Virus record (IMG/VR): IMGVR_UViG_3300025704_000043
Location: 1 to 43,645 of that record
DNA from: a virus
Reading direction: 5' to 3' (one strand)
Length of the DNA: 43,645 bases
The position numbers and the translations under genes were made by a program. This document shows, in pieces, positions 1 through 41,000 of the stretch (position 1 is its first letter; each line of letters starts with the position of its first letter). The notes under the pieces were generated by a model that saw only the letters and a list, made by a program, of their open reading frames with translations, ran no database searches and had not been told where the DNA came from.

Positions 1-97
1 ACGCCGACTTGTATGCAGGTATACCGAAATTGAATACGCGTACGCCAAGCATTTTAGATGTCTTTTTTAGTTTAGAGTTTTGTGTAAGTAAATTCAT
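1..97 (-). CDS. GP88-family protein, 5' part only (runs off window)
   Basis: The reading frame starts at the ATG at 97 and stays open to base 1, so only the first 32 codons are present. The translation begins MNLLTQNSKLKKTSKMLG and continues with VRVFNFGIPAYKSA. The LTQNSKL start followed by a 'FNFGIPAYKSA' stretch matches what I know of the N-terminus of the 'gene product 88' family, whose members carry a Cys-rich core just beyond this point. The Cys core lies outside the window and cannot be checked. The gene follows the 63-aa gene after 2 nt and is probably co-transcribed with it from the element at 312-354. The role of the family is unknown to me. Confidence 0.7.
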   Translation of the reverse strand, partial: MNLLTQNSKLKKTSKMLGVRVFNFGIPAYKSA

Positions 98-99
98 AG

Positions 100-291
100 T
101 TATAAGCTGTTATAGTATTCGTTAAGATCGTCTATTGATTCTATTATGCCTCGACATGCATCATAAATGTCTTCTAGCCAATTATCATTTTTGTAGTCTT
201 CCCATTGATCTAGTGTATCCATGTCGTCTACTTGTTCCATTGTTTCTAGGTCTGCCAACAATTGCTGTAATTCTCGTACTGTGTATTTCAT
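100..291 (-). CDS. hypothetical small acidic protein (63 aa)
   Basis: This 63-residue, strongly acidic protein (many D and E, few K and R) has the predicted-helical segment VRELQQLLADLETMEQ near its N-terminus and a second around EDIYDACRGIIESIDDL. No domain is recognised. It is the first gene downstream of the bipartite promoter-like element at 312-354; its ATG lies about 21 nt beyond the element after an A-rich leader without a Shine-Dalgarno. Its stop is 2 nt before the GP88 start. Small acidic early phage proteins often bind host enzymes, but nothing in the sequence shows a target. Confidence 0.7.
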   Translation of the reverse strand: MKYTVRELQQLLADLETMEQVDDMDTLDQWEDYKNDNWLEDIYDACRGIIESIDDLNEYYNSL

Positions 292-311
292 TTTATTTGT
301 TTTTAGTTTAT

Positions 312-354
312 TGTTTTAATATATTATCTTACCTGTATCGTATTATTTTTGTAA
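312..354 (-). promoter_or_regulatory. bipartite promoter-like element, copy A
   Basis: On the minus strand the upstream block TTACAAAAATAATACG is followed by 10 non-conserved bases and GATAATAT. This copy lacks the GTAAC that ends most downstream blocks (it reads ATTAAAAC). The stop codon of the 115-aa gene abuts the upstream block, and the ATG of the 63-aa gene follows about 21 nt after the element. Direction is inferred from genes starting on that side in nearly all copies. Confidence 0.6.
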
Positions 355-702
355 TTACTCTTCAACTATATTGAATAGCTCTTCAACACTATCTGATATA
401 TATTCAGCAAGGTCATCAGCTGCGTCAAACTCAATATTACTTAACTGTATTCTATTGTCATAATCTATTTCTAACTCATAAGAATAAGAGTCCGATCTAT
501 CAAATTCATAGTTGCTAATTGTTTGGGTAATAGCTTCTCTGATTTCATCTACAGTTTCCTTAGTTATTTTAGGTAGATTAATTTTTTCTAGCGCAATTTT
601 TGCAAGTGATAGCTCTTTACTCATCTGAGTTGAGTCTTGTTTAGCTTGTGTTAACATTGTTTCTAATGTTTGAATTCTGTTTTCTAATGCTTGTTGTTCC
701 AT
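355..702 (-). CDS. hypothetical coiled-coil protein (115 aa)
   Basis: The N-terminal half (about residues 1-45) has regular hydrophobic spacing and no proline, consistent with a coiled coil: MEQQALENRIQTLETMLTQ followed by a Lys/Glu-rich helix. The C-terminal half is acidic and Tyr-rich (SDSYSYELEIDYDN) and ends EELFNIVEE. No family is recognised. It is the last gene of the three-gene run starting at 1153, separated from the 71-aa gene by 9 nt, and its TAA abuts the element at 312-354. Dimerisation through the coiled coil is an inference. Confidence 0.7.
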   Translation of the reverse strand: MEQQALENRIQTLETMLTQAKQDSTQMSKELSLAKIALEKINLPKITKETVDEIREAITQTISNYEFDRSDSYSYELEIDYDNRIQLSNIEFDAADDLAEYISDSVEELFNIVEE

Positions 703-711
703 AATTTAGTT

Positions 712-927
712 TTATTTATTTGATTTTTCTATTGATTCTGTTATGTATTGCCACACTTGCAGCTCTCTTTTTGTTACCTCTAGCATTAATTCTAACTCAG
801 ACATAGTGATTGGACCTGTTATTTTATGCTTTATATCGTATGAAAGCTGCTCAATCTCAATCTTTAGCATTGACATTTTAGCGAAAGCTTTGTTACTTGC
901 TCTGTCATGTAGTTCGTATTTAGTCAT
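712..927 (-). CDS. hypothetical helical protein (71 aa)
   Basis: This 71-residue protein looks almost wholly helical (SMLKIEIEQLSYDIKHKI, then SELELMLEVTKRELQVWQYI), possibly a helical hairpin. It overlaps the end of the upstream 77-aa gene by 8 nt, which suggests translational coupling, and lies 9 nt before the 115-aa gene. No known family is recognised. The compact coupling to neighbours supports it being a real gene. Confidence 0.7.
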   Translation of the reverse strand: MTKYELHDRASNKAFAKMSMLKIEIEQLSYDIKHKITGPITMSELELMLEVTKRELQVWQYITESIEKSNK

Positions 928-1153
928 CTTCTTTGATTAAAATGTTATCTCCGAACCTCATGTCCCAAGCTGATACTCTTAATTTATTTATATTACAAAC
1001 TTCGTATATATCACTTAACTCACTGATAGTCAAGTCACCGTAAAACGTAGAGCTTTCTAGCTTTGCTAACAATCTACTTGAAGTGAAAGAATAGTCACTT
1101 GATTTAATTTTTTTGATGTACTTAGGTTTGATTTTTTGTAGTAATGTATTCAT
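920..1153 (-). CDS. hypothetical protein (77 aa)
   Basis: A 77-residue protein with a basic N-terminus (LLQKIKPKYIKKIKSSDY) and an acidic C-terminus (ILIKEDD). The middle, LTISELSDIYEVCNINK, may be helix-turn-helix-sized but I cannot assign it. The ATG at 1153 lies 16 nt downstream of the promoter-like element at 1170-1212, making this the first gene of a three-gene operon with the 71-aa and 115-aa genes. No family is recognised. Confidence 0.7.
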   Translation of the reverse strand: MNTLLQKIKPKYIKKIKSSDYSFTSSRLLAKLESSTFYGDLTISELSDIYEVCNINKLRVSAWDMRFGDNILIKEDD

Positions 1154-1169
1154 TGTTTTATTTTTATTT

Positions 1170-1212
1170 GTTACGTATATATTATCATACGGTGATCGTA
1201 TTATTTTTGTAA
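1170..1212 (-). promoter_or_regulatory. bipartite promoter-like element, copy B
   Basis: The minus strand carries TTACAAAAATAATACG, ten variable bases, then GATAATAT and a block ending GTAAC. It is a perfect match to the group consensus. The ATG of the 77-aa gene is 16 nt downstream. The upstream block is also translated as the C-terminus (DYKNNTITV) of the 89-aa gene, so the element overlaps coding sequence. Confidence 0.65.
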
Positions 1213-1454
1213 TCTTTATTGTAAGTTGTAGCTAACTCTATGTAGTCTACATCTGACAGGAACGCTCTTGCATAATCTTCTACTAAGTAAGGTGTGTTGC
1301 ATGTATTTGGATTCCTGAACACGCAATCTTCAACTATTTCTTTTAGTTCTGATGGTTGTACTATATAGTCAAAGTCTATGCTTCCAAGTATCTCTGTGTT
1401 TATTTTCCAAGTAGCGTAATTGCTCCAACCGTTGTATTTTTCTAATTTACTCAT
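1185..1454 (-). CDS. DUF7249-like phage protein (NGWSNYATW signature, 89 aa)
   Basis: The chosen start (1454) gives MSKLEKYNGWSNYATWKINT. The N-terminal NGWSNYATW(R/K)-N signature is typical of a small phage protein family that I know as DUF7249; its function is unknown. A longer reading from 1577 exists but would overlap the upstream gene by over 120 nt, and the shorter start lies 1 nt after that gene's stop. The last codons of the gene run through both blocks of the element at 1170-1212, so the C-terminus YKNNTITV is dictated by promoter-like DNA. Confidence 0.75.
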   Translation of the reverse strand: MSKLEKYNGWSNYATWKINTEILGSIDFDYIVQPSELKEIVEDCVFRNPNTCNTPYLVEDYARAFLSDVDYIELATTYNKDYKNNTITV

Positions 1455-1455
1455 A

Positions 1456-1773
1456 TTATTTGTTTCTATAAGGTGTTCGTTCATGATATGCTTCTTTAAA
1501 TTCCTCAATTGTATCTTTTTCAAACTTATTGAAAGAATTGATACCGTATAACTTGTCGTATAACTCTTTGAAGCCATCGTATCTACAGTATTTACCGTTG
1601 ATCTCGTAAGACATTTCTATATCGCTTATTTCGTGCTCGTAAGTGTCTTTTAGTTCATTGTGAATAGTATGACTCCACACAGTTCCTTTTACTGTAAATA
1701 ATCCTAGTTCTTTTGAAAAGCCAGTACTTATACTGTAGCTTACGTCTTCAAAATTCTTAATAATTTCACTCAT
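1456..1773 (-). CDS. hypothetical protein (105 aa)
   Basis: The protein has an N-terminal part rich in beta-type residues (DVSYSISTGFSKELGLFTVK then GTVWSHTIHNELKDTYEHEI) and a helical C-terminus (KFEKDTIEEFKEAYHERT). The pattern suggests a small alpha/beta fold, but no family is recognised. It is the first ORF downstream of the putative ncRNA at 1795-1960 and the element at 1963-2005. It is followed after 1 nt by the NGWSNYATW gene. Confidence 0.7.
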   Translation of the reverse strand: MSEIIKNFEDVSYSISTGFSKELGLFTVKGTVWSHTIHNELKDTYEHEISDIEMSYEINGKYCRYDGFKELYDKLYGINSFNKFEKDTIEEFKEAYHERTPYRNK

Positions 1774-1794
1774 ATCGTTTAATTTAATTTGTTA

Positions 1795-1960
1795 GTAACT
1801 AGTGAGGAATCGAACCTCATACCCGTCGGTAGTCGCGGCGACCGGGGACACCCCAATCCTAAATCCTCCATACCTAGTTTCCGCACCATTCCAGGATCTT
1901 CGTCAGCTTAACAATTTATACTACCATTGCCGTACTGAGCCCCACAAAGTGCTTGTTTTG
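1795..1960 (-). ncRNA. putative structured RNA with tRNA T-arm-like 3' end
   Basis: This 160-nt spacer has no leftward ORF, starts directly after the element at 1963-2005 and is much more GC-rich than its surroundings. Read on the minus strand, it ends in a perfect T-arm: stem TGAGG, loop TTCGATT, stem CCTCA. Just before it is a run of small hairpins: GGGG-TGT-CCCC, GTCG-CCG-CGAC and TACC-GACG-GGTA. Flanking stems GAAACTAG/CTAGTTAC (one mismatch) and TTGTT(A)AG/CTAACAA could close the structure. I could not fit a normal D-arm or a 7-nt anticodon loop, so an ordinary tRNA is not supported. It could be a tRNA relic, a tRNA-like element or a new ncRNA. Ends are approximate. Confidence 0.5.
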
Positions 1961-1962
1961 TT

Positions 1963-2005
1963 GTTACATATATATTATCCTGCTTGTGTCGTATTTTTTT
2001 TGTAT
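1963..2005 (-). promoter_or_regulatory. bipartite promoter-like element, copy C
   Basis: The upstream block is slightly degenerate (ATACAAAAAAAATACG); after 10 variable bases come GATAATAT and GTAAC. It overlaps the 3' end of the 72-aa gene. What follows is not an ORF but the GC-rich putative RNA at 1795-1960, so this copy seems to drive a non-coding transcript that may read on into the 105-aa gene. Confidence 0.6.
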
Positions 2006-2193
2006 TTCTTTTTACCTAAGCTTACATCTTGATACATACGGCTGACTACACGGTGCATAAGTTCGGTGTGTATAGCACTAAACTCATCTCCGTCCTCTAT
2101 GATATGATCACCATCGAGTTCCCATTCACATACGTCTGATAGTTTGTTTAACATCGTAGCGGATATTCTGTTTACTTTCAACTGCGTTTTCAT
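1975..2193 (-). CDS. hypothetical protein (72 aa)
   Basis: The start overlaps the stop of the 96-aa gene (ATGA), so translation is probably coupled. The N-terminus MKTQLKVNRISATMLNKLSD is basic, the middle is acidic (ELDGDHIIEDGDEF), and the C-terminus GKKKYKKNTTQAG is encoded within the element at 1963-2005. It is the last gene of the operon that starts at 2927. No family is recognised. Confidence 0.65.
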   Translation of the reverse strand: MKTQLKVNRISATMLNKLSDVCEWELDGDHIIEDGDEFSAIHTELMHRVVSRMYQDVSLGKKKYKKNTTQAG

Positions 2194-2480
2194 ATTAATT
2201 CTAATTTATCTATTAATTCTTTTGATTTTTTAGCTACCATTGCTTCAATGTAAGACTTTTGTACCGATTTTAAGATAGAGCTCTTAAATCTATACAAATT
2301 CATACATGACGACGAGTGGTGTGAGTGGCTTACAACTTCTTCAGATAGATCAAACCATGACCCGCCGCCGTATTTTTCTTGTAAAAACTCTAACGATTTT
2401 ACAAAGCCTTGTACTATCTGCTCTAGTTCCTCTTCTGCAGATTTTTTTAGTCTTTTTTCTATTTGATTTAAGTCTTTCAT
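2190..2480 (-). CDS. hypothetical helical protein (96 aa)
   Basis: The protein is mostly helical, with an N-terminal Lys/Glu-rich coiled-coil-like segment (LNQIEKRLKKSAEEELEQIV) and a second basic helix near the C-terminus (VQKSYIEAMVAKKSKELID). The middle has an unusual His/Ser-rich SHSHHSSS stretch that could bind metal, but no second ligand cluster is obvious. The start overlaps the previous stop (TAATG) and the stop overlaps the next start (ATGA). No family is recognised. Confidence 0.65.
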   Translation of the reverse strand: MKDLNQIEKRLKKSAEEELEQIVQGFVKSLEFLQEKYGGGSWFDLSEEVVSHSHHSSSCMNLYRFKSSILKSVQKSYIEAMVAKKSKELIDKLELI

Positions 2481-2656
2481 TATAATATTCTTTTTAATTG
2501 TTCTTTAATTGCTAGTATATCTTCATCACTAACTGCTACTTCTTCATCGCTCTCACGTTCCCATATAACATTGTACATAGCGTCGTGGAAGTTATCACCT
2601 ATTATTTCATCTAGGCGATTAGCGATGTCTTTAATTTCCTCCCACGTTAACTTCAT
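2480..2656 (-). CDS. hypothetical small acidic protein (58 aa)
   Basis: The start at 2656 gives MKLTWEEIKDIANRLDEIIG. A longer version from 2725 would overlap the upstream gene by nearly 100 nt, so the shorter one (26-nt overlap) is preferred. The protein is acidic, with the stretch RESDEEVAVSDEDILAIKEQ before the C-terminus LKRIL. It may be a short two-helix protein. It lies between the 98-aa and 96-aa genes and shares TAATG with the latter. No family is recognised. Confidence 0.55.
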   Translation of the reverse strand: MKLTWEEIKDIANRLDEIIGDNFHDAMYNVIWERESDEEVAVSDEDILAIKEQLKRIL

Positions 2657-2927
2657 CTTGACAGTTTTTTTGGTTAAATGCGTACAAGAATTTAATTCTA
2701 TCGACGTGATTTGGAATTGTTTCACGCTTGAAGTTTATCCACTCTGGATTTCTTTCATTTACATACGGTGTTTTCTTGTTGATTTGATAGAACAACGGTC
2801 TTCTGTGATAAAAATTATCTTGTTTGGTATTAACTCGTACATAACCTGACTCAGATACTGTACCTATTCTACCGTCTGACAATTCGAAGTGTAAACTTCC
2901 TTTGCTTGTGATTTTAATTAACTTCAT
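2631..2927 (-). CDS. hypothetical protein (98 aa)
   Basis: This is the first gene downstream of the element at 2944-2986; the ATG follows 16 nt after it, behind a purely A/T leader. The N-terminus (LIKITSKGSLHFELSDGRIG then TVSESGYVRVN) alternates as in a beta-barrel or beta-sheet; the second half is basic and aromatic (YHRRPLFYQINKKTPYVNER). I recognise no family. The 3' end overlaps the next gene by 26 nt. Confidence 0.65.
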   Translation of the reverse strand: MKLIKITSKGSLHFELSDGRIGTVSESGYVRVNTKQDNFYHRRPLFYQINKKTPYVNERNPEWINFKRETIPNHVDRIKFLYAFNQKNCQDEVNVGGN

Positions 2928-2943
2928 ATTATTATTTTTATTT

Positions 2944-2986
2944 GTTACATATATATTATCTAAGAGCGATCGTATTATTTTTGTAA
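2944..2986 (-). promoter_or_regulatory. bipartite promoter-like element, copy D
   Basis: This copy matches the consensus in both blocks: TTACAAAAATAATACG, 10 variable bases, GATAATAT, then ATATGTAAC. The leader after it is AAATAAAAATAAT before the ATG at 2927. The TAA stop of the DnaA-like gene is embedded in the upstream block. Confidence 0.7.
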
Positions 2987-3361
2987 GAAGTAATTCTGTT
3001 GAATAAATTCTATTTGCTCTTCGTTTAAGTCACTCCAGTTAACACCATACTCGACGCTAGCTATAGTGTTTAACGCTTTGATACCGATAGCTCGCCTGCC
3101 GGAGTTATTAATTTGCTGCTTGATGCTTGTGTATAGCACTTGATCCGTCAATGGAAATATCTTATGCACACCATGTAATACAGTTGCATAGTTTTTATTT
3201 AGCTCATTACCTATAGTCTCGAATGTATCGTTAGTATATTCTCGAGATAGCTTGTAAAATAAAGCTCTAGCGTCTGAGTGGTACCGTTTTCTACCCTTGA
3301 TAGCTAAGTCGAAACCTACATTGTCTTCTACTATTGCTCTTATTTGTCTTATGTTAATCAT
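2975..3361 (-). CDS. DnaA domain-IV-like DNA-binding protein (128 aa)
   Basis: Residues 24-68 match the C-terminal DNA-binding domain of DnaA: a basic GRKRYHSDARALFYKLSRE helix, then ETIGNELN, then NYATVLHGV at 57-65. The last corresponds to the DnaA signature motif D/N-H/Y-(S/A)TVLH that contacts DnaA boxes. There is no AAA+ ATPase domain; the full protein is only 128 aa, against roughly 450 aa for DnaA. It probably binds a DnaA-box-like site in the phage or host, as an origin-recognition helper or transcription factor (inference). It overlaps the upstream 105-aa gene by 8 nt. The C-terminus LQK is encoded inside the element at 2944-2986. Confidence 0.75.
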   Translation of the reverse strand: MINIRQIRAIVEDNVGFDLAIKGRKRYHSDARALFYKLSREYTNDTFETIGNELNKNYATVLHGVHKIFPLTDQVLYTSIKQQINNSGRRAIGIKALNTIASVEYGVNWSDLNEEQIEFIQQNYFLQK

Positions 3362-3671
3362 TTGCTTGTATTTTAGCTACTAATGTTTGTAGAAACCAGT
3401 CACAGCTTGTATTGCCGCCAACGCTCCATGTTGTTAAACCATTTTTAGTATATTTCTTATCGTAAGTTTTCCAGTCATACACTCTGAATACTTTGTCAGT
3501 GTATAACACAACCCACTCGTATTGAACCTTGCCGTCACCTGAATCACTTGGTTTGAATGTTGGTTTGCCTAATGCTTTTTTGATTTGTTTGTAAGTAAAA
3601 CCATTTAACTCACCTACCTTGTAACCGTCAAGGTTTACGTTATCTAACTCGTCTATATTTAATTTTCTCAT
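3354..3671 (-). CDS. conserved phage protein of unknown function (105 aa)
   Basis: The sequence has the pattern 'Y-x-x-(I/L)-x-x-x-(F/L)-G-x-P-T-F-x-x-x-D-S-G-D-G-K-V-x-x-E-W', then FRVYDWKTYDKKYTKNG and WSVGGNTS. I associate this with a widespread small phage protein of unknown function. The alternating pattern suggests a small alpha/beta domain with a central sheet. It begins 2 nt after the 59-aa gene and overlaps the DnaA-like gene by 8 nt, so the three genes form an operon from the element at 3869-3911. Confidence 0.7.
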   Translation of the reverse strand: MRKLNIDELDNVNLDGYKVGELNGFTYKQIKKALGKPTFKPSDSGDGKVQYEWVVLYTDKVFRVYDWKTYDKKYTKNGLTTWSVGGNTSCDWFLQTLVAKIQAND

Positions 3672-3672
3672 A

Positions 3673-3852
3673 TTATTCTGCTATCCAAGTTAAACCTTTA
3701 TAATTAAACCACTCTGTTATACCGTCTTTGTCTTCATTCTCATCATAGATGAATGCGAACTTGCTTGGTATTTCACTGATACTATAACCTCTGTATAGTT
3801 TTATACCGTTTAGTATTAATCTTGTTTTGCTTTTAAATTTTAGTGATTGCAT
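3673..3852 (-). CDS. hypothetical protein (59 aa)
   Basis: Translation starts MQSLKFKSKTRLILNGIKLY and ends NYKGLTWIAE. The ATG lies 17 nt downstream of the element at 3869-3911 and the TAA is 2 nt before the next ATG, so the operon position supports a real gene. The segment GYSISEIPSKFAFIYDENED has alternating hydrophobics suggesting beta strands. No family is recognised. Confidence 0.65.
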   Translation of the reverse strand: MQSLKFKSKTRLILNGIKLYRGYSISEIPSKFAFIYDENEDKDGITEWFNYKGLTWIAE

Positions 3853-3868
3853 AGTATATATTTTATTT

Positions 3869-3911
3869 GTTACATGTATATTATCTTACTCATGTCGTAT
3901 TATTTTTGTAA
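3869..3911 (-). promoter_or_regulatory. bipartite promoter-like element, copy E
   Basis: The minus strand reads TTACAAAAATAATACG, ten variable bases, GATAATAT, then ACATGTAAC. It lies between the stop of the 63-aa gene, which is embedded in the upstream block, and the ATG of the 59-aa gene 17 nt downstream. Confidence 0.65.
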
Positions 3912-4091
3912 TTGCTTTGATCTATTTTTTAACTCTGCTAAAGCTTTGTCTGCTATTTCCCAAGCGTCATAGTATCGCTCTCTGTTCTGACTTTCATCTA
4001 GTATATCTCTGATACCATCATTTTTTAATTGCTCCATCAACGCTTCCATACCTAGTATGACTATGTTTAATTCTTTGTTAGTTAATTCCAT
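3900..4091 (-). CDS. hypothetical helical protein (63 aa)
   Basis: A 63-residue protein of two predicted helices: ELTNKELNIVILGMEALMEQ, then a charged linker (LDESQNRERYYD) and AWEIADKALAELKNRSKQL. The architecture resembles many small early phage helical hairpins; no family is assigned. It is the last gene of the operon starting at 4688, and its stop lies within the element at 3869-3911. Confidence 0.65.
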   Translation of the reverse strand: MELTNKELNIVILGMEALMEQLKNDGIRDILDESQNRERYYDAWEIADKALAELKNRSKQLQK

Positions 4092-4105
4092 ATTTATTTA
4101 TTCTA

Positions 4106-4294
4106 TTAGTTTAAGTTAAATACTTTACAAAATATATCTTCTTCGAGTTCTTCAGGTAATTCACCGTCTTCACACTCGCAATCTTCTTTGACAAACTTAG
4201 ATATTAAGTTTATTAATTCTCTTTCACTGACCTCGTTACTTTTTAGTTTGAAGTAGTCTATTGTTTCTTTATTCCACTCGAATACTTTTTCCAT
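4106..4294 (-). CDS. hypothetical small acidic protein (62 aa)
   Basis: A strongly acidic 62-aa protein with a Cys-containing acidic stretch (FVKEDCECEDGELPEELEED). The N-terminal half is helical (WNKETIDYFKLKSNEVSERE). It lies 14 nt upstream of the 63-aa gene and 10 nt after the small membrane protein gene. The charge suggests binding to a basic or nucleic-acid-binding partner, but no family is recognised. Confidence 0.65.
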   Translation of the reverse strand: MEKVFEWNKETIDYFKLKSNEVSERELINLISKFVKEDCECEDGELPEELEEDIFCKVFNLN

Positions 4295-4304
4295 AAATTG
4301 TACT

Positions 4305-4469
4305 TTAGATTATTCCACCGACACTATTAAATGAAGTTGGGTTAGTTACTAGTTTGAATATTAATACAGTGATACCTGTCGCTGCTAAACCTGTTAGTGA
4401 TATCATTATCGCTTTGATAGTTACATCGGTTACTTTTACTAGTAACTTGTGTGTGAATTGTTTTCTCAT
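4305..4469 (-). CDS. small single-pass membrane protein (54 aa)
   Basis: The chosen start at 4469 gives MRKQFTHKLLVKVTDVTIKA followed by a hydrophobic stretch (IMISLTGLAATGITVLIFKL) of about 20 residues and a short polar tail (VTNPTSFNSVGGII). The basic N-terminus suggests the N-terminus faces the cytoplasm. The upstream A/T leader (ATAAATATAATTAAT before ATG) is like those of neighbouring genes, which favours this start over an upstream one at 4523. Function is unknown; it could be a superinfection-exclusion or envelope-modifying protein (inference). Confidence 0.6.
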   Translation of the reverse strand: MRKQFTHKLLVKVTDVTIKAIMISLTGLAATGITVLIFKLVTNPTSFNSVGGII

Positions 4470-4592
4470 ATTAATTATATTTATTAGTTCACGAACAGGT
4501 GCAAAGTTTCTCTTTTCGCCCAAGCTATTTAAAATCTCTTTGTTTTAAATAATTATTCTGTACTCGGTTTTTTTGTTCGCTTTATTTTATTA

Positions 4593-4688
4593 TTATTCTT
4601 CTTCATTGAATTCTGCCCACTCTAGGCAATCTCCACATAGTTCGTCGCTTAAAAAGCTCGGCTCGGCGCCACAACAGTTACTCCACAT
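4593..4688 (-). CDS. 31-aa mini zinc-ribbon-like protein
   Basis: Translation of 31 residues: MWSNCCGAEPSFLSDELCGD then CLEWAEFNEEE. A CC pair (residues 5-6) and C-x2-C (18-21) spaced by 11 residues give four Cys that could bind one zinc ion, and the acidic WAEFNEEE tail is typical of tiny phage zinc ribbons. The ATG follows 20 nt after the element at 4709-4751, behind the standard A/T leader. Despite its size, the ordered Cys pattern and promoter position support a real gene. The partner is unknown. Confidence 0.65.
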   Translation of the reverse strand: MWSNCCGAEPSFLSDELCGDCLEWAEFNEEE

Positions 4689-4708
4689 ATTATTTATATT
4701 TATTAGTT

Positions 4709-4751
4709 TTTACATTTATATTATCTACGAGTAGACGTATTTTATTTGTAG
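4709..4751 (-). promoter_or_regulatory. bipartite promoter-like element, copy F
   Basis: A somewhat diverged copy: CTACAAATAAAATACG, ten variable bases, GATAATAT, then AAATGTAAA. The 31-aa zinc-ribbon ATG follows 20 nt later. Confidence 0.55.
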
Positions 4752-4856
4752 ACAGTGTTTTCACTGACTCTAACACACCGTAACTTGTTTATATACATAG
4801 ATGTAAGAATAGTATATTATTGTTTGTTAGAGGTGTTGTTTTATTTGTTGAAAGAA

Positions 4857-4886
4857 AGAGGAGTAGAGTAGTAACACCACTCCTCT
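4857..4886 (-). terminator. probable terminator after the 75-aa gene
   Basis: An 8-bp perfect stem, AGAGGAGT paired with ACTCCTCT around a 14-nt loop, lies 14 nt after the stop of the 4900-5127 gene. On the minus strand it is followed by a T-rich tract (TTCTTTCAACAAATAAAAC). The rest of the spacer (4752-4856) shows only one small CAGTG-TTTT-CACTG hairpin near 4753 and no ORF. Confidence 0.5.
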
Positions 4887-4899
4887 AAGCACTTAAGAG

Positions 4900-5127
4900 T
4901 TAAATAATTACTTTATCTCTTAGTATTACTGGAATTGAAGAAGAAGAAGTGTATGATTTATACTTTTTAAAACATTCCATTACTTCTAATTTGTCTTTCA
5001 TTATCTCGTAAGCGAGATCGTGGTTGTAAGTAGTAGTTTTTCCATTTTTAAATGTTACTTCGACTACTTGATTTTTTCCAATTAGTGACTTTCTGATTAC
5101 AAAGCGTTTAGATTTTAAGTTTTCCAT
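4900..5127 (-). CDS. hypothetical 75-aa protein, paralogue 1
   Basis: The protein starts MENLKSKRFVIRKSLIGKNQ and ends SIPVILRDKVII. It is a clear paralogue of the protein at 6046-6273: same length, no gaps, 57 of 75 residues identical by eye, with most changes conservative (I/V, S/T). The N-terminal two-thirds alternates as in a small beta-sheet (RFVIRKSLIGKNQVVEVTF then NGKTTTYNHD), followed by a helix. It resembles the small 'KTxTSxF..I..' type single-domain phage proteins only loosely, and no family is assigned. It is expressed from its own element at 5164-5206 and ends in its own hairpin. Confidence 0.75.
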   Translation of the reverse strand: MENLKSKRFVIRKSLIGKNQVVEVTFKNGKTTTYNHDLAYEIMKDKLEVMECFKKYKSYTSSSSIPVILRDKVII

Positions 5128-5163
5128 TGTTTAAGTTATTTAAGTTATTATTATTATTTTTTA

Positions 5164-5206
5164 GTTACATATATATTATCTTAAAGTGGACGTATTATTT
5201 TTGTAA
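5164..5206 (-). promoter_or_regulatory. bipartite promoter-like element, copy G
   Basis: The minus strand reads TTACAAAAATAATACG, ten variable bases, GATAATAT, ATATGTAAC; the ATG at 5127 follows after 36 nt of A/T-only leader. Copy H lies 36 nt further upstream, so the 75-aa gene may have tandem promoters. Confidence 0.65.
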
Positions 5207-5242
5207 CGTTGTCGAGCAGAGCGAAGTGCTATACACAAGAGT

Positions 5243-5285
5243 GTCTATTAGATATTATCTTAAGCGAAGCGTAATTTCTTTGTAA
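5243..5285 (-). promoter_or_regulatory. degenerate bipartite element, copy H
   Basis: TTACAAAGAAATTACG, ten bases, GATAATAT: both blocks and the exact spacing are kept, but the terminal GTAAC is replaced by TAATAGAC. No gene starts directly after it; the next signal is copy G. It could be a tandem or decayed promoter. Confidence 0.4.
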
Positions 5286-5354
5286 AAAGCGAAGTGCTAT
5301 ACACTATGCTATACATAGCGTTTTCTTTAGCAAGAAAAGCTACGTTTCACACAG

Positions 5355-5402
5355 TGTGACATTAGGGTCTTAATATAGACCTAGTAAGGGGCTATTGTCA
5401 CA
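5355..5402. repeat. inverted-repeat element, copy 1
   Basis: TGTGACATTAG at 5355-5365 pairs with CTATTGTCACA at 5392-5402 (one T-T mismatch). Inside is a second hairpin, GGTCT paired with AGACC. The right half AGTAAGGGGCTATTGTCA is identical in copy 2 at 6761-6806. On the plus strand it is followed by GTTTTTATTTG, which resembles a terminator tail, but the element lies just after the stop of the leftward 43-aa gene. Confidence 0.55.
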
Positions 5403-5406
5403 GTTT

Positions 5407-5538
5407 TTATTTGTATTGTTCTAACCATCTTTCGATGCCTTTTTGTTCGTCAGTCATAGGTTTTTCTACTACGTTAATGCGAATACATTTTACGTATTTC
5501 GTACCGTCAGGTCGTGTGATTGTTTTGCTTGTGTACAT
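5407..5538 (-). CDS. hypothetical protein (43 aa)
   Basis: The 43-aa product begins MYTSKTITRPDGTKYVKCIR and ends IERWLEQYK. A beta-hairpin-like start (TITRPDGTKYVKCIRINVVE) precedes a short helix (MTDEQKGIERWLEQY). It shares one base with the stop of the upstream 56-aa gene (TAATG), the last in a run of five coupled or closely spaced small genes from the element at 6302-6344. No family is recognised. Confidence 0.6.
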   Translation of the reverse strand: MYTSKTITRPDGTKYVKCIRINVVEKPMTDEQKGIERWLEQYK

Positions 5539-5708
5539 TATTTGTATATTTTTGGGTTAGTATGAGACATCCATTCGATGTTGTTGATGTCGAAGCCACG
5601 GTCTTCTATGAAAAGCTCTAGGTCTTCACAAGATTGATTTTCTTGGTCGGTAAATTCTAATTGGTGTACTTTACCGTTGGTGAAATTTAGTATTGTTATG
5701 TATATCAT
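5538..5708 (-). CDS. hypothetical protein (56 aa)
   Basis: A 56-aa protein starting MIYITILNFTNGKVHQLEFT. The N-terminal half alternates as in a beta-hairpin; the rest is helical and acidic (CEDLELFIEDRGFDINN). The ending IEWMSHTNPKIYK is typical of a small phage family I recall with an N-terminal 'V-W/H-Q-L' hairpin, but I cannot name it. The stop overlaps the next start (TAATG). Confidence 0.6.
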   Translation of the reverse strand: MIYITILNFTNGKVHQLEFTDQENQSCEDLELFIEDRGFDINNIEWMSHTNPKIYK

Positions 5709-5718
5709 ATTGTTTGTT

Positions 5719-5871
5719 TTAGATTGCTTCCCAGAACAGGTTGCGCTGTTCAGTGGTTAAGCCGATTAGATTGTCTTGTCCGAACATTTCTTGGCAGATC
5801 ACAGTTCTGCGCTCAGACTCTTTAATGTTTCGCATGACTTCGTCCCATGCTTGTTGATTTGTTTTATACAT
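5719..5871 (-). CDS. hypothetical helical protein (50 aa)
   Basis: A 50-aa protein beginning MYKTNQQAWDEVMRNIKESE and ending TTEQRNLFWEAI. It looks all-helical with one Cys. The A/T leader ATAAAAACTAAATATT precedes its ATG, and it lies 10 nt before the 56-aa gene. No family is recognised; operon position is the main support. Confidence 0.55.
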   Translation of the reverse strand: MYKTNQQAWDEVMRNIKESERRTVICQEMFGQDNLIGLTTEQRNLFWEAI

Positions 5872-5883
5872 AATATTTAGTTT

Positions 5884-6006
5884 TTATAGTTTATTAATTA
5901 GTTCGTCTAGTGTTATTTGTAAACTTGTTTTAGTTACATTTCCGTTTAGATATTGTTGAAGTTCATCGATTGTTGCAATTACTTCTACTCTTTGCTCGTT
6001 TGTCAT
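5884..6006 (-). CDS. hypothetical protein (40 aa)
   Basis: A 40-aa protein, MTNEQRVEVIATIDELQQYL then NGNVTKTSLQITLDELINKL, probably a helical hairpin. It has the same leader style (AATAAAAACTAAATATC before ATG) as its neighbour at 5719-5871, suggesting a duplicated translation-initiation region. No family is recognised. Confidence 0.5.
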   Translation of the reverse strand: MTNEQRVEVIATIDELQQYLNGNVTKTSLQITLDELINKL

Positions 6007-6045
6007 GATATTTAGTTTTTATTAGTTATTGTTTTAGATGAGAGA

Positions 6046-6273
6046 CTAGACTATTTCTTTGTCTCTTAAGATTACTGGAATACTTGTTGATGAAGTATAA
6101 GACTTATATTTGATGAAACAGTTCATAGTTTCTAGTTTGTCTTTCATGATATCATATACTTTATCGTGATTGTATGTTACTTGTTTTCCAGATTTGAATG
6201 TTACTTCAATGATTTGATTCTTTCCTACTAATGATTTTCTTACTACGAATCTTTTTGTTTTTAATGTTTCCAT
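6046..6273 (-). CDS. hypothetical 75-aa protein, paralogue 2
   Basis: Paralogue of the protein at 4900-5127 (57 of 75 identical by eye, gap-free). It starts METLKTKRFVVRKSLVGKNQ and ends SIPVILRDKEIV. Residues most strictly kept are KRFV-RKSL-GKNQ, EVTF-GK, TYNHD, IMKDKLE, KYKSYTSS and SIPVILRDK; differences cluster at positions 31-41. It is the first gene after the element at 6302-6344, followed by four even smaller genes that paralogue 1 lacks. Function is unknown. Confidence 0.75.
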   Translation of the reverse strand: METLKTKRFVVRKSLVGKNQIIEVTFKSGKQVTYNHDKVYDIMKDKLETMNCFIKYKSYTSSTSIPVILRDKEIV

Positions 6274-6301
6274 GTTTATTATATTTAATTATTATTATTT
6301 A

Positions 6302-6344
6302 GTTACAGTTATATTATCTAGTTGACTACGTATTTTCTTTGTAA
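6302..6344 (-). promoter_or_regulatory. bipartite promoter-like element, copy I
   Basis: The minus strand reads TTACAAAGAAAATACG, ten variable bases, GATAATAT, AACTGTAAC. The ATG of paralogue 2 follows after 28 nt of A/T leader. It precedes the five-gene run 6273 to 5407. Confidence 0.65.
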
Positions 6345-6353
6345 TGTTCTCCT

Positions 6354-6467
6354 TTATAAAAGGTTAGAACCGTTTTGTAATGTATCAATTAATACTATTA
6401 TAGATAAGAATAGAATAGTTGATAGAGAAATTAATTTGATTACTGAATTAAGATTTAAATGTTTCAT
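6354..6467 (-). CDS. small membrane peptide (37 aa)
   Basis: The product begins MKHLNLNSVIKLISLSTILF and continues LSIIVLIDTLQNGSNLL. A hydrophobic stretch of about 20 residues (VIKLISLSTILFLSIIVLI) is flanked by a short basic N-terminus and a polar C-terminus, fitting a single membrane span. The ATG lies 14 nt downstream of the element at 6482-6524, so it is the leader gene of the whole leftward region. Function is unknown. Confidence 0.55.
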   Translation of the reverse strand: MKHLNLNSVIKLISLSTILFLSIIVLIDTLQNGSNLL

Positions 6468-6481
6468 GTTATAGTTATTTG

Positions 6482-6524
6482 GTTACAGTTATATTATCTG
6501 TGTGCAAGCGTATTATTTTTGTAA
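6482..6524 (-). promoter_or_regulatory. bipartite promoter-like element, copy J
   Basis: TTACAAAAATAATACG, ten variable bases, GATAATAT and AACTGTAAC on the minus strand. It is the first (rightmost) copy, at the edge of the divergent region, and precedes the 37-aa membrane peptide. Confidence 0.65.
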
Positions 6525-6746: not shown

Positions 6747-6760
6747 AACTTTTTAAAAAC

Positions 6761-6806
6761 TGTGACATTAGCCTTATAAGTTATAGAGTAAGGGGCTATT
6801 GTCATA
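6761..6806. repeat. inverted-repeat element, copy 2
   Basis: TGTGACATTAG (6761-6771) pairs with CTATTGTCA (6796-6804), with an inner CTTATAAG palindrome. Both arms are identical to copy 1, while the inner 15-17 nt differ. Here the TTTTTA tail lies on the minus-strand side (GTCACAGTTTTTA), the reverse of copy 1. Confidence 0.55.
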
Positions 6807-14228: not shown

Positions 14229-15785
14229 ATGACTGATAAGATTGTCAAGAACTTAAGTTTTGGTGATGACGCTAAAACTAAGGTATTCGAAGGAATAAAC
14301 AAATTAACAAAAGCCGTTAGTTCTACACTAGGAGCTAGTGGCCAATGTGTAATTTTAGAAGACGGTAGCGGAAGACCGGTTATTACAAAAGATGGTGTAA
14401 CCGTTGCTGATTCAATAACATTACTAGACCCAGTAGAAAATATGGGTGCTACGCTTTTAAAGGAAGCTGCTAGAAAAACCGTTAAAGAAGCTGGAGACGG
14501 AACGACCACGGCTACGGTACTAGCGCACTCAATATTAAGTGAAGCTTACGAGGCTTCAAAACAGAATAATATCAGAGTTATAAAAGATGGTATTAACACT
14601 GGGGTTGAGAAGGTAATAAAGTATTTAGAAAGAAAAAGTATCAGCGTCAGTGGTGATATGCTAAAAGACATTGCTACTATTAGTTGTAACAACGAGAGAT
14701 ATTTAGGTGAGATCATAGGTGATGCCTTTGAAGCTGCTGGAGAAAACGGTGTTGTTATAATGGAACAAACAGATACTGAAGAAACTAGCTTTGAGTTAGT
14801 TGATGGTGTTCAGTATGACAAAGGTTTGACAAACTCACATTTTGTGACTAGTCAGGAAAAAAGAATAGCTGAATTAGAAAGACCAGTTGTATTGCTATTA
14901 GAATCACCAGTTGAGTCTGTTAGAAAGATACAATCAATATTGGAATATGTTATTCAAAATAACAAACCGTTATTAGTTATAGGTGATTTAGATCCACAAG
15001 TGATCTCTACATTAGCTATGAATAAGGTTAAAGGAAATATAAAAGTCAACGTGATCAATGCTCCGACATACGGAATAAACAAAAAAGATGTATTATCTGA
15101 TCTAGCTGTATTAACAGGCGCGACAGTAATAAACGAAGATCTTGGAGATGACTTAGACGTCATAAACCCAAGTTTATTAGGTACATGTATAAAGAGTGTT
15201 ACTGATGATTACGAAACTATACTACAAGTAGACAACGAAACAGAAGAAGTTAAAAGTCTGATAGAAGAGGTTAAAAACCAAATCAAAGAAGCAAAAGCTC
15301 CTGGAGATGTTATTAGATTAGAAAAAAGACTATCAAGGTTGTCTGCTAAAGTAGCTATAGTAAAAGTAGGTGCTAACTCAGAAGTAGAGTTAAAAGAAAA
15401 ATCTGACAGAGTTGAAGACGCTATATGTGCTACTAAAGCCGCTATTAAAGAAGGTATAGTATCAGGTGGTGGAATCGCATTGTTAGATGCATCTACAAAA
15501 GTTAAACCAAAGAATATTGGTGAAGAGATATTGCTAGAGGCCATTAAGGCGCCATTTAAGAAGATATTAAGTAATTCAGGTGTTGAATTTCAGGTGTCAG
15601 GAAAAGAAGGCGTAGGAATGGACGTAATAACAGGTAAGATGGTTAATATGATTAAGAAAGGAATTATTGATCCTTTGTTAGTTACAAAAAGCGCCTTGAA
15701 AAACGCTGCTTCCGTTGCAACAACTATATTATCAACTGATTGTGTAATTAATAACTTAAGAGTTGGAGATGAAAGCAATAGGTAA
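14229..15785 (+). CDS. groL: phage-encoded chaperonin GroEL (518 aa)
   Basis: A near full-length GroEL (cellular ones are about 545 aa). All ATPase motifs are present: TLGASGQ with ITKDGVTVAD (Asp55, equivalent to Asp52), AGDGTTTATVLA (Asp90, equivalent to Asp87), and VEDAICATKAAIKEGIVSGG (Asp397, equivalent to Asp398), plus C-terminal SALKNAASVATTILSTDCVI. The apical substrate- and GroES-binding segment differs: the usual Y-x-x-x-Y-F reads GLTNSHF. The Gly-Gly-Met tail is absent, so it ends DESNR. The tail overlaps groES. It presumably folds phage capsid or fibre proteins, alone or mixed with host rings (inference). Confidence 0.93.
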   Translation: MTDKIVKNLSFGDDAKTKVFEGINKLTKAVSSTLGASGQCVILEDGSGRPVITKDGVTVADSITLLDPVENMGATLLKEAARKTVKEAGDGTTTATVLAHSILSEAYEASKQNNIRVIKDGINTGVEKVIKYLERKSISVSGDMLKDIATISCNNERYLGEIIGDAFEAAGENGVVIMEQTDTEETSFELVDGVQYDKGLTNSHFVTSQEKRIAELERPVVLLLESPVESVRKIQSILEYVIQNNKPLLVIGDLDPQVISTLAMNKVKGNIKVNVINAPTYGINKKDVLSDLAVLTGATVINEDLGDDLDVINPSLLGTCIKSVTDDYETILQVDNETEEVKSLIEEVKNQIKEAKAPGDVIRLEKRLSRLSAKVAIVKVGANSEVELKEKSDRVEDAICATKAAIKEGIVSGGGIALLDASTKVKPKNIGEEILLEAIKAPFKKILSNSGVEFQVSGKEGVGMDVITGKMVNMIKKGIIDPLLVTKSALKNAASVATTILSTDCVINNLRVGDESNR

Positions 15786-27455: not shown

Positions 27456-27467
27456 GAGTATATTAAT

Positions 27468-27508
27468 GTAATTATTACCCTCGTTATATCAACGGGGGTA
27501 ATTATTAC
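27468..27508 (+). terminator. strong stem-loop after the capsid gene
   Basis: An 18-bp stem (one G-T pair): 27468-27485, beginning GTAATTATTACCC, pairs with 27491-27508 around an ATATC loop. A short CTTTATTAAA follows. It probably terminates or attenuates transcription, or stabilises the capsid mRNA 3' end. Confidence 0.7.
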
Positions 27509-27538
27509 CTTTATTAAATTATCAAATTATATTATATC

Positions 27539-28300
27539 ATGAAAACAAAAGTAATTAAAAATGAAAAGTGGGAAATTAAAGATAGAACCTACTTTGTAAC
27601 AGGATCATATCAACCTTTAACGTTAAGAATACCAGCTAGACATAGTTTAAAGTCGCCAATGCTGTATTATGACGAAGAAACAAATGAACAAAGAGAACTA
27701 AGATACGCAACCAATATGTCATCGCCTTTTAAAGATGAACAAAAAGGAGAGGTAACTTTAGGTCATATCTTATTTAAAGATGGATCTTTGTTTGTACCAA
27801 AAAGAAATCAACAACTACAAAAACTTTTATCACTATATCACCCTTTAAAAGGAATTAGATATACTGAATTTAACGCTGTAGAAGAAGCTGAAGATGAGTT
27901 AGATGTTATGGAGATGCAAATTGAAGCCTTAAATGCTGCTATGTCATTAGACGTAGATCAACAAGAAGCAATATTAAGGGTAGAATTAGGATCCAAGGTT
28001 AGTAACATGTCATCTAAGGAACTTAAAAGAGATTTACTACTATTTGCAAGGCAGAATCCTGCTTTGTTCTTAGAACTCGCTAAAGATGAAAACGTACAAT
28101 TGAGAAACTTTGCTATCAAAGCTGTAGAAGCTAAGATCATTAAGTTATCACAAGATCAAAGATCGTTTTCTTGGGCAAGCAATGGTAAAAAACTAATGAC
28201 AGTTCCTTTTGATGAAAACCCTTACTCAGCTATGGCAGCGTATTTCAAAACAGACGAAGGTGTAGAAGTCTTCAAGTCTATTGAGAAAAAACTTAAATAG
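27539..28300 (+). CDS. hypothetical capsid-adjacent protein (253 aa)
   Basis: The N-terminal about 105 residues form a beta-rich domain (YFVTGSYQPLTLRIPARHSL, then PMLYYDEETNEQRELRYATN, then GEVTLGHILFKDGSLFVPKR). The remainder is helical and charged, with a possible coiled coil (DELDVMEMQIEALNAAMSLD). I associate this layout with a protein next to the capsid gene in flavobacterial phages, function unknown (head accessory, or a shared T4-like structural protein). It lies between two strong hairpins, so its level may be set separately from capsid and adaptor genes. Confidence 0.6.
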   Translation: MKTKVIKNEKWEIKDRTYFVTGSYQPLTLRIPARHSLKSPMLYYDEETNEQRELRYATNMSSPFKDEQKGEVTLGHILFKDGSLFVPKRNQQLQKLLSLYHPLKGIRYTEFNAVEEAEDELDVMEMQIEALNAAMSLDVDQQEAILRVELGSKVSNMSSKELKRDLLLFARQNPALFLELAKDENVQLRNFAIKAVEAKIIKLSQDQRSFSWASNGKKLMTVPFDENPYSAMAAYFKTDEGVEVFKSIEKKLK

Positions 28301-38031: not shown

Positions 38032-41000
38032 ATGAACGAAGAAGCATTACTACATTCATTTGAGTTATTTTCTAAAGATGGCTATGAAGGAAGTATAAAA
38101 GATTATAAAGAGTTAATAAAAACAAACAAAGAAGCTTTAAAACACTCTTATGATCTTTTTTCTAAAGATGGTTACGAAGGTGACGAGTATAAATTCCAAG
38201 ACTTAGTTGGTGTTGAGCTAGTAAAGACAGAAGCTGTTGCAACGGAAACTGCACCTGTAACAGCGGGGAATCAAGCAGTAGATACGGGTTTAGAATCGGG
38301 AGATGGTTTATTGGCATCGTCAAGTGATAAGTTCAAGAACTTTTTAGCAAATCAAGGTGTTGAGCCTCAGAAAGATATAACACCTGATGAGTTTGAAAGC
38401 TTTTTAGATGCCGCTGATGGTATTTCACCAGGAGCTAAGCTAGATCTTAAAACAGCTAAGTATAAGCAAGAAATTCAAGATGAAACAAAGTCTATATTAA
38501 ATAATAGATCAGCTCAACTTCCTAAAACAGAATTAGGAACCATTAATTTTGATGATAAAAAAGCTATTGAAAAATTTAGAAAAGACGCTCTTTTAGATTT
38601 CACCTCTAGCAATAGCACTATACAGAATAAAATTATACCTAGTATAAAAAAAGCTATAAAACCAGCTGTTGACACTTATGTGCAAGAAGCTATGGTTAAA
38701 TACAAGCTAAACGACCCGAGCAGCGTAACTCAAGAAAACCTTGACTCTTTCAATAAAGATGTTAATTCTTTCTATAATGAGTTAATGAAAACCAAAATAT
38801 CAAACAATACTGACTTTAAAGCTTTAACAGCGGCTTTTGAAGAATCCGTAGACGATAAAGCTGCTGATCCTTTAAAAAGCTTCGTGCAGTCAAAAGATAT
38901 GCCTACATTGTATCAAATGGGTCAAACGGCAAAGAAAATAGGCTTTGGAGCTCCAACAGTTGTTAAGTCTATGGCAGTTGCTGTCACTGGTCTTAGAGGT
39001 GTTAACGAAGGCCTTAAAGAGTGGGCTAATAACGCTAGTTACAAACAGGTTATAGACAAAGTTGTTTCTTTTGAAGAAAACGAAACTCGTGCTAAAAAGT
39101 ATAATTGGAGCGATAACACTGAAGGTTATTTTATAGAAGACAAAACAAACGAAAAAGGTTCTTATAGGTTTAAGCCTAGGTTTACAGGAGCTTTAAAATC
39201 AAAGGACGGTGTTTCTTATAGAGACGTTAATGAGTTAGTAGAGCAACCAAAACCTGGAGGTGCTAAACCTATAACTTGGGGTGATTTTAAGCTTAAATTT
39301 AAACAATACGAAAAAGAACAAGACGAAAAAGCATTAAAAGCTTTTGCAGATATTCAGAATGAGCAATTCATACTTTCTAACTACGATAAAGGTGAATTAG
39401 ACAAGATATTTAAAGGTGAAGATATTATAGCTAATTCTATACTTCTAACAGCTGAACAACTTTCTCAAATGGCTTTAGCGTATATTACATTAGGTGCTTC
39501 TGGTGCCTTACAGATGGGTGGTGATATATATACTCAAGGTATAGATGTCGAAGCTAGAAAAAGGTTTGACTTGTCTGAAGAAGATAGAGTTACTTTAGAT
39601 ATGAAAAAAGAAATATTTAAAGACAAAAAGTTTATGGATTCTTTAGAGGCTAAAAGTGTCGCTGGAGGATTTGCTGCAGGTCAAATGGAACGATTTGGTG
39701 CTGGTAAAACATTGAAACCTTTTATTACAGGACTCAATAAATCCTTACTAAGAAGTGGTTACAAGAACTTTTTAAAAGACGCAACAAACAAGCTTGTAGC
39801 AAACGCCCAGAACTCTAGCATAGAAGCTATAACAGAGACAGGTCAAGAAATAATAACAGCAGCTGCTTCCGGTGGAGAATTAGACGCTAAGCAACTTTTT
39901 GATGCCGGTGCTACTGGTTTCATATCCTCTTTCACTACAGGTATAGGTGGTAATATAGGAAATCAATCTATATCCGAAGCAAAAGCTTTTAGCAAGATTA
40001 TAGCAGGGAAATTAAACTCTAATAGCTCTGAAGCTATGTTTAATTTTAAAATAAAAGAAATAGAAGATCAAGCTAAAAAAGAAACTAAAGCTAATGTTAA
40101 AAAAGATTTACTAGAAAAAAGAGACGCTATCATAGAGGTTCGAAACGCTGGTTTATCTGTGCCTAAAGATTTTAGCAGCGATTCTAAAAGTAAAGCTATA
40201 GATCTTATAATTAAGAAAAAACAACTAGAAAAAGACATAGAAGGGAAAGAGCCTGAATTAGTTACAAACCAAAAAGAAGAAATAAAAAAGATTAATACCG
40301 AGCTGCAGAAAGTGGCTGCAGATAATACGCTTGAAAAAACAACAAAATCTATAGAAAAACTAGCTGGTGACATTAAAGGTGTAAATGTTAAGTCATTAGA
40401 TAATGCAAAAGCTATAGACGACTATATAAAAGAAAATAACTTAGATATAGACAAGAAAGCTTCTGAACAGCAAGGTTTTATATTTCAAAACAAAGAAACA
40501 GGTGAGCAAACTATAATAATAAACAAAGACGTAGCTGCTAAAGAACAAGCTGTAAACGTTGCTGCCCACGAATTTCTACATGCATTACTCTTTCAGACAG
40601 TAAAAGATAGTCCTACTACACAAGTGTCTTTAGGTAACTCTTTAAAAAGCTATTTAGATAAAGTAGATGCTGATCAAGTAAAAGATAGTAATTTCGCTAA
40701 AAGGCTAGATCAATACAAGCAAGATCCAAACAATGTAAAAGCAGAAGAAGTTATAACTTTATTCTCTGACGCTTTAGCTACTGGAGACATCAAGTTCAAC
40801 GAAAATGTTTTTACTAAAATAGGTGATGTTATCCGTAGAGCATTGCAATCTGTAGGTGTCAGCGTTAAGTTTAACAATGGTAAAGACGTATACAATTTTG
40901 TTAAAGATTACAATAAAAGTGTATCAAAAGGAAAGCTTACTAAAGCACAAATAAAAGCTTCTAAAGGAGTTAAAGGTAGTTTAGTTGCTGAAGGTGTGAC

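Follow-up and report, generated by a model that had tools for sequence, protein, structure and literature searches.

In bacteriophage T4, middle promoters combine a MotA box near −30 with a −10 element. A sigma factor encoded by the phage itself and paired with promoters of its own is also a known arrangement, for example in phages phiEco32 and 7-11 (PMC4331800). Among bacterial sigma factors, sigma-28 (FliA) has the promoter consensus TAAAGTTT-n11-GCCGATAA, in which GCCGATAA is the −10 element (PMC2859248), and the sigma-dependent motifs described for Flavobacterium psychrophilum, which has no FliA/sigma-28-type sigma factor, are TAnnTTTG, TAnnTTGY, sigma-54 and the CGT box (PMC9723704). Here, we analyzed 43,645 nucleotides of viral DNA, the complete linear IMG/VR record IMGVR_UViG_3300025704_000043 (hereafter the window), in which a 43-bp element made of two conserved blocks and a 10-nt spacer occurs ten times. 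Judged from sequence, it is near certain that this element functions as a promoter, and its anatomy, as read from the conserved bases, is that of a sigma-type promoter. It probably represents a phage-specific early promoter class that is read by the host core RNA polymerase together with a phage sigma factor of the FliA/sigma-28 kind, where “early” and “late” denote arms and genes by their gene content and not by their expression.

Like phiEco32 and 7-11, the phages studied here have two opposed gene clusters, a sigma factor of their own and short conserved phage promoters. In phiEco32 and 7-11, however, these promoters follow a 9-bp consensus (TAATGTATA) and serve middle and late genes, with host promoters serving the upstream part (PMC4331800), whereas the present element is bipartite and 43 bp long, is found in the early arm only and goes together with missing host-type boxes. 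Promoter and sigma gene co-occur, as for sigma-dependent promoters of the SPO1 and phiEco32 kind, with one lineage (L340/L344) as an exception. Similarity to T4 middle promoters lies in a conserved box around −30 at a fixed distance from a −10-like element, but our analysis identified no protein like MotA, the element comes with a sigma gene and the sequence of the box is unrelated. The −10 part starts with GATAA, as in sigma-28 promoters, and the center of the upstream block, near −30, is not far from the −35 octamer of sigma-28; GATAA is invariant, but the GCC that precedes it in GCCGATAA is not, and the element has in its place a spacer of free sequence and one base specific to the phage. 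Short leaders, AT-rich surroundings and the lack of Shine-Dalgarno motifs are shared with Bacteroidota sigma-A promoters, which differ in having TAnnTTTG rather than GATAATAT at −12 to −5; the element phages have hardly any host-type boxes near their starts. What is new is the family itself, the rigid 43-bp bipartite element, its confinement to the early arm, a base −13 that is specific to the phage and the loss of host-type promoters.

Ten copies of the element in the window

The terminase, portal and virion proteins of the window place it near podoviruses of Bacteroidota, namely MW202828, whose portal is 51% identical, Maribacter phage Panino, Flavobacterium elemo phages and Cellulophaga phages, and the family consists of uncultured marine podoviruses that probably have Bacteroidota as hosts. 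Small early genes run leftward (1-6524) and structural genes rightward, and Shine-Dalgarno motifs occur at chance frequency, as in Bacteroidota. A relative (G011) is collinear with the window, mostly at 80-86% DNA identity. The early arm and the predicted promoter elements are as follows:

Early (leftward) arm: 1-6524, minus strand; holds all ten elements; collinear with relative G011
Element 1: 312-354, minus strand; predicted +1 at 316; gene 100-291; without GTAAC
Element 2: 1170-1212, minus strand; predicted +1 at 1174; gene 920-1153
Element 3: 1963-2005, minus strand; predicted +1 at 1967; noncoding tRNA-like stretch 1796-1967, then gene 1456-1773
Element 4: 2944-2986, minus strand; predicted +1 at 2948; gene 2631-2927
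Element 5: 3869-3911, minus strand; predicted +1 at 3873; gene 3673-3852
Element 6: 4709-4751, minus strand; predicted +1 at 4713; Cys-rich open reading frame (ORF) of 30-odd residues, ATG at 4688
Element 7: 5164-5206, minus strand; predicted +1 at 5168; gene 4900-5127
Element 8, tandem upstream copy: 5243-5285, minus strand; predicted +1 at 5247; without GTAAC
Element 9: 6302-6344, minus strand; predicted +1 at 6306; gene 6046-6273
Element 10: 6482-6524, minus strand; predicted +1 at 6486; next ATG ORF from 6467

The initial annotation had reported these ten minus-strand copies, each with a 10-nt spacer, and our searches agree with it. With up to three mismatches allowed, TTACAAAAATAATACG-N10-GATAATAT matched the window exactly ten times, always on the minus strand, and never in 100 dinucleotide-preserving shuffles; TACG-N10-GATAATAT occurred ten times in reverse and not at all in forward orientation, the pattern read backwards gave no match, and no weaker eleventh copy was detected in the window by weight matrix. 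GTAAC follows the second block in 7 of the 10 copies. The annotation was right as to the length of the spacer, but the spacer sequence does not vary with complete freedom: across phages, position −22 is mostly A, position −14 mostly T (almost never G) and base −13 nearly fixed within each phage (A in 8 of the 10 window copies). Most copies had been placed just before operon starts, and for eight of them a gene does start no more than about 40 nt from the predicted +1; the other two are the copy at 5243-5285, a second promoter upstream of 5164-5206 for the same gene, and the copy at 1963-2005, which leads into the noncoding tRNA-like stretch and not directly into a gene.

That noncoding stretch (1796-1967, minus strand) starts at the predicted +1 of element 3 and ends in a tRNA-like T-arm (GAGGTTCGATTCCTC). 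In a comparison with this stretch as query, the first 127 nt of the query are 98% identical in G005, and a 43-nt 3′ piece is 100% identical in a more distant relative (L143); Rfam and ARAGORN gave no call for it, and its folding was not in excess. The genes after elements 7 and 9 (4900-5127 and 6046-6273) encode a duplicated protein family of about 75 amino acids that occurs in 16 element-bearing records, is lacking in MW202828 and Panino, and matches no known family.

Promoter anatomy and predicted start sites

The anatomy was derived from 542 distinct copies and is numbered from a +1 deduced from the sequences themselves. The upstream block extends from −38 to −22, with TTACAAA at −38 to −32 and AATACGA at −28 to −22, and is followed by a weakly conserved spacer, GATAATA at −12 to −6 and a preference for T at −1. 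Spacer length was 10 in 295 of 301 block pairs scored independently. Within the upstream block, the half-sites TACAA and TACGA are direct repeats 11 bp apart, a distance that suggests two contacts on one face of the DNA.

Transcription would start at a purine 12 bases past the G of GATAAT. This position, +1, is occupied by G or A in 99% of the 542 copies, and in 46 copies, belonging to 17 protein families, an ATG exactly at +1 opens an ORF; of the 47 ATGs at +1, 46 open an ORF, as compared with 9 of the 180 ATGs that lie two bases earlier. Start codons follow +1 at a median distance of 19 nt; in F. psychrophilum, leaders have a median of 24 nt and 5.5% of mRNAs are leaderless (PMC9723704).

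Base −13 appears free when all copies are pooled (entropy 1.95 bits), yet it is nearly fixed inside many genomes, e.g., T in 15/15, C in 10/10 or G in 9/9 copies, and its mutual information with the genome (1.42 bits, z 37.6) is the highest of all columns. It is probably a phage-specific discriminator, whose natural reader would be a factor that itself differs among the phages, and it makes the co-evolution of promoter and factor directly testable.

Distribution among phages and replacement of host-type promoters

A motif search of the window and related phages, proposed with the initial annotation as a check, showed that the element recurs in relatives, on one strand and tied to gene starts. 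At least 542 distinct copies were found in related uncultured phages. The element was present in 33 of the 36 viral records examined, nearly always on one strand (control pattern, 0), and the weight matrix recovered 190 copies in 19 records, 188 of them on the majority strand of the record; reversed sequence and MW202828 contained no copy. When 80 contigs were retrieved through their sigma gene, 65 carried a total of 375 elements, every one on the strand of the sigma gene (375/375). Elements are missing from 15 sigma loci, in 12 of which the gene lies within about 2.1 kb of a contig edge; the remaining three are L340, L344 and L369. Late promoters do not carry the element; none was found in 837 kb of late arm around 80 portal loci.

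Outside these phages, a scan of 84,980 bacterial and archaeal species genomes returned only 10 stretches with the element, the majority on contigs that belong to the present phage family and sit in mixed bins, and the host therefore appears not to use it. No description of the element was found in the literature (open-licence papers). As the annotation had stated, the element does not fit the Bacteroidota promoter TAnnTTTG, and GATAATAT occupies the position of that box (−12 to −5). In six relatives that lack the sigma gene, 51 of 216 starts have a TAnnTTTG box before them (control 9), and in eleven element genomes 4 of 345 do (control 6). Related phages thus show a clean swap of promoters, in which those without the sigma factor have host boxes and those with it have none to speak of; the element is likewise missing from cultured relatives that do not have this sigma factor. 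The proposal of a new phage-specific promoter class is thus supported at the sequence level by recurrence, by single-strandedness, by linkage to gene starts and a start-site signature, by absence from host genomes and by co-occurrence with a phage sigma gene.

A phage sigma factor as the likely reader

Genes for a sigma factor of about 250 amino acids and a helix-turn-helix protein of about 206 amino acids lie on the element strand in all 17 element-bearing records that reach the region. The window and G005, the element-bearing records without them, are fragments that end before it; by collinearity with G011, the genes would lie about 2-3 kb past the left end of the window. Profile searches found neither protein in MW202828 or Panino. 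The sigma factor matches PHROG sigma factors (phrog_351, 5.5e-24), and its best match in the PDB is FliA, to which it aligns best over regions 2 to 4 (residues 28-242, 3.4e-12). Region 2, including the core-binding stretch DLIQEG..GL.AVDK, aligns with region 2 of SigA and FliA; for the helix-turn-helix of region 4, the FliA alignment extends to residue 242, and Pfam Sigma70_r4 scored 20.5 bits, under its cut-off of 24.1. Foldseek searches with the predicted model returned sigma factors as top matches (E 3e-5; a model of moderate quality, pLDDT 72, with low TM-scores over the multi-domain chain). No close relative was present in 50,697 phage records.

The annotation had named a phage sigma factor, an RNA polymerase or an activator as possible readers, among which the sigma factor is best supported and likely the reader of the element, and the helix-turn-helix protein may act with it as an activator. 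A large phage family thereby gains a transcription system with predicted start sites, and the pair of sigma factor and promoter could serve as an orthogonal tool for Bacteroidota.

Proposed mechanism and alternative explanations

From the genomes we infer a mechanism in which the FliA/sigma-28-related phage sigma factor would direct the host core RNA polymerase to the element, with GATAATA acting as the −10 element and base −13 as discriminator, and the conserved helix-turn-helix protein encoded near the sigma gene may contact a portion of the upstream block. Since the promoters lie upstream of the sigma operon as well, the circuit would amplify itself.

Several observations weigh against this mechanism. 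The sigma-28 −35 sequence TAAAGTTT at 11-nt spacing is unmatched, the element instead having TTACAAA...AATACGA over 17 bp at another spacing. Covariation with base −13 is similar for the sigma factor (0.72), the helix-turn-helix protein (0.74) and controls (0.60-0.72). In five copies, all before members of a single gene family, the start codon lies at −6 relative to the predicted +1, in register with homologues, and these genes could be served by read-through from upstream promoters. The clearest exception to the link between sigma factor and element is the lineage L340/L344, which has both the sigma and the helix-turn-helix gene and no detectable element; no convincing diverged motif was found there by a method that recovers the element in G013, and L369 also lacks the element, though it is apparently rearranged. 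In L340/L344, there is at most one host-type promoter box. Finally, sigma genes lie downstream of most elements; a circuit of this kind would therefore feed itself and need a seed, and the first sigma copy would have to come from another source, such as virion-borne sigma factor, leaky starts or an unseen host promoter. How an early promoter class can rely on a factor whose gene lies downstream of it is a testable question. An extension in which the family has left host sigma specificity altogether, its early genes, including the sigma gene, being served only by promoters of its own sigma factor, which would enter with the virion or arise from rare leaky starts, is conceivable but doubtful; virion delivery of a sigma factor, if true, would be a new way of starting infection.

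It is unlikely that the helix-turn-helix protein, or another activator, redirects the host sigma-A holoenzyme to the elements in the manner of MotA and leaves the late genes to the phage sigma factor. The co-occurrence of the helix-turn-helix gene with the elements, exactly like that of the sigma gene, would agree with such an activator, as would the equal covariation of both proteins with base −13, an upstream block that covers the MotA position near −30 and has a direct repeat, the downstream location of the sigma gene, which fits a later-acting factor, and its retention in L340/L344 without elements. However, GATAATAT at −12 to −5 is a poor fit to the box of host sigma-A, a fold search gave no confident match between the helix-turn-helix protein and any solved fold (nothing below E 0.28), the conserved control region of the first late gene differs from the element and lacks GATAA, and a GATAA −10 suits a FliA-like sigma factor. 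Reading of the element as a strong early promoter by the host RNA polymerase and a host sigma factor, with no phage factor involved, would provide what the most upstream early promoters need, a reader present before any phage protein exists. We rejected this reading on the species-genome scan and on the F. psychrophilum motif set, which does not include the element (PMC9723704), and the phage-specific base −13 and the plain host boxes used by cultured relatives further make it highly improbable.

More improbable still is a phage RNA polymerase, single-subunit or virion-carried, for which +1 would be the G of GATAATAT. The sequence TAATACG occurs in T7 promoters; AATACGA resembles their left half, and window copies contain TAATACG. 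A giant late protein could be injected, and this register would fit the few start codons that precede the predicted +1. Yet PF00940 was found in none of six element genomes, nor in the wider phage set, with T7 and N4 recovered as positive controls, and a multisubunit or two-barrel polymerase was rejected as well, as no RNA polymerase beta-prime domain was found in the element phages and the giant late protein has no conserved DxDxD. Early proteins of at least 300 amino acids comprise only a primase-helicase, ribonucleotide reductase subunits and one unassigned family of about 620 amino acids, and the bases beside this alternative +1 are unconserved, unlike those of known single-subunit promoters. 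The least probable explanation is that the element is not a promoter but a binding site that recurs, be it an operator, an origin or a mobile repeat: being multicopy, intergenic and phage-specific, it resembles stoperators, but its orientation follows the genes throughout the 375 copies, and the short distance to the start codon, the purine at +1 and the leaderless starts in register are features of a promoter.

Candidate late-arm control sites and other features

A long dyad (TGTGACATTAG...CTATTGTCA) occurs twice in the window, at 5357-5403 and 6760-6805, and most relatives have kept it ahead of their first late gene; it is a candidate late operator or activator site:

Dyad: 6760-6805, plus strand; upstream of the first late gene (6879), kept in relatives; candidate late control site, not the element

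Further along the late arm, the window encodes a phage GroEL-like chaperonin (14229-15785). The giant late protein (38032-43645, continuing past the end of the window) measures about 2,200-3,860 amino acids in relatives and has an HExxH motif in most members, being otherwise very variable. Around 27465-27510, a hairpin (TTACCCTCGTT...ACGGGGGTAA) before the late gene at 27539 is kept in 11 genomes.

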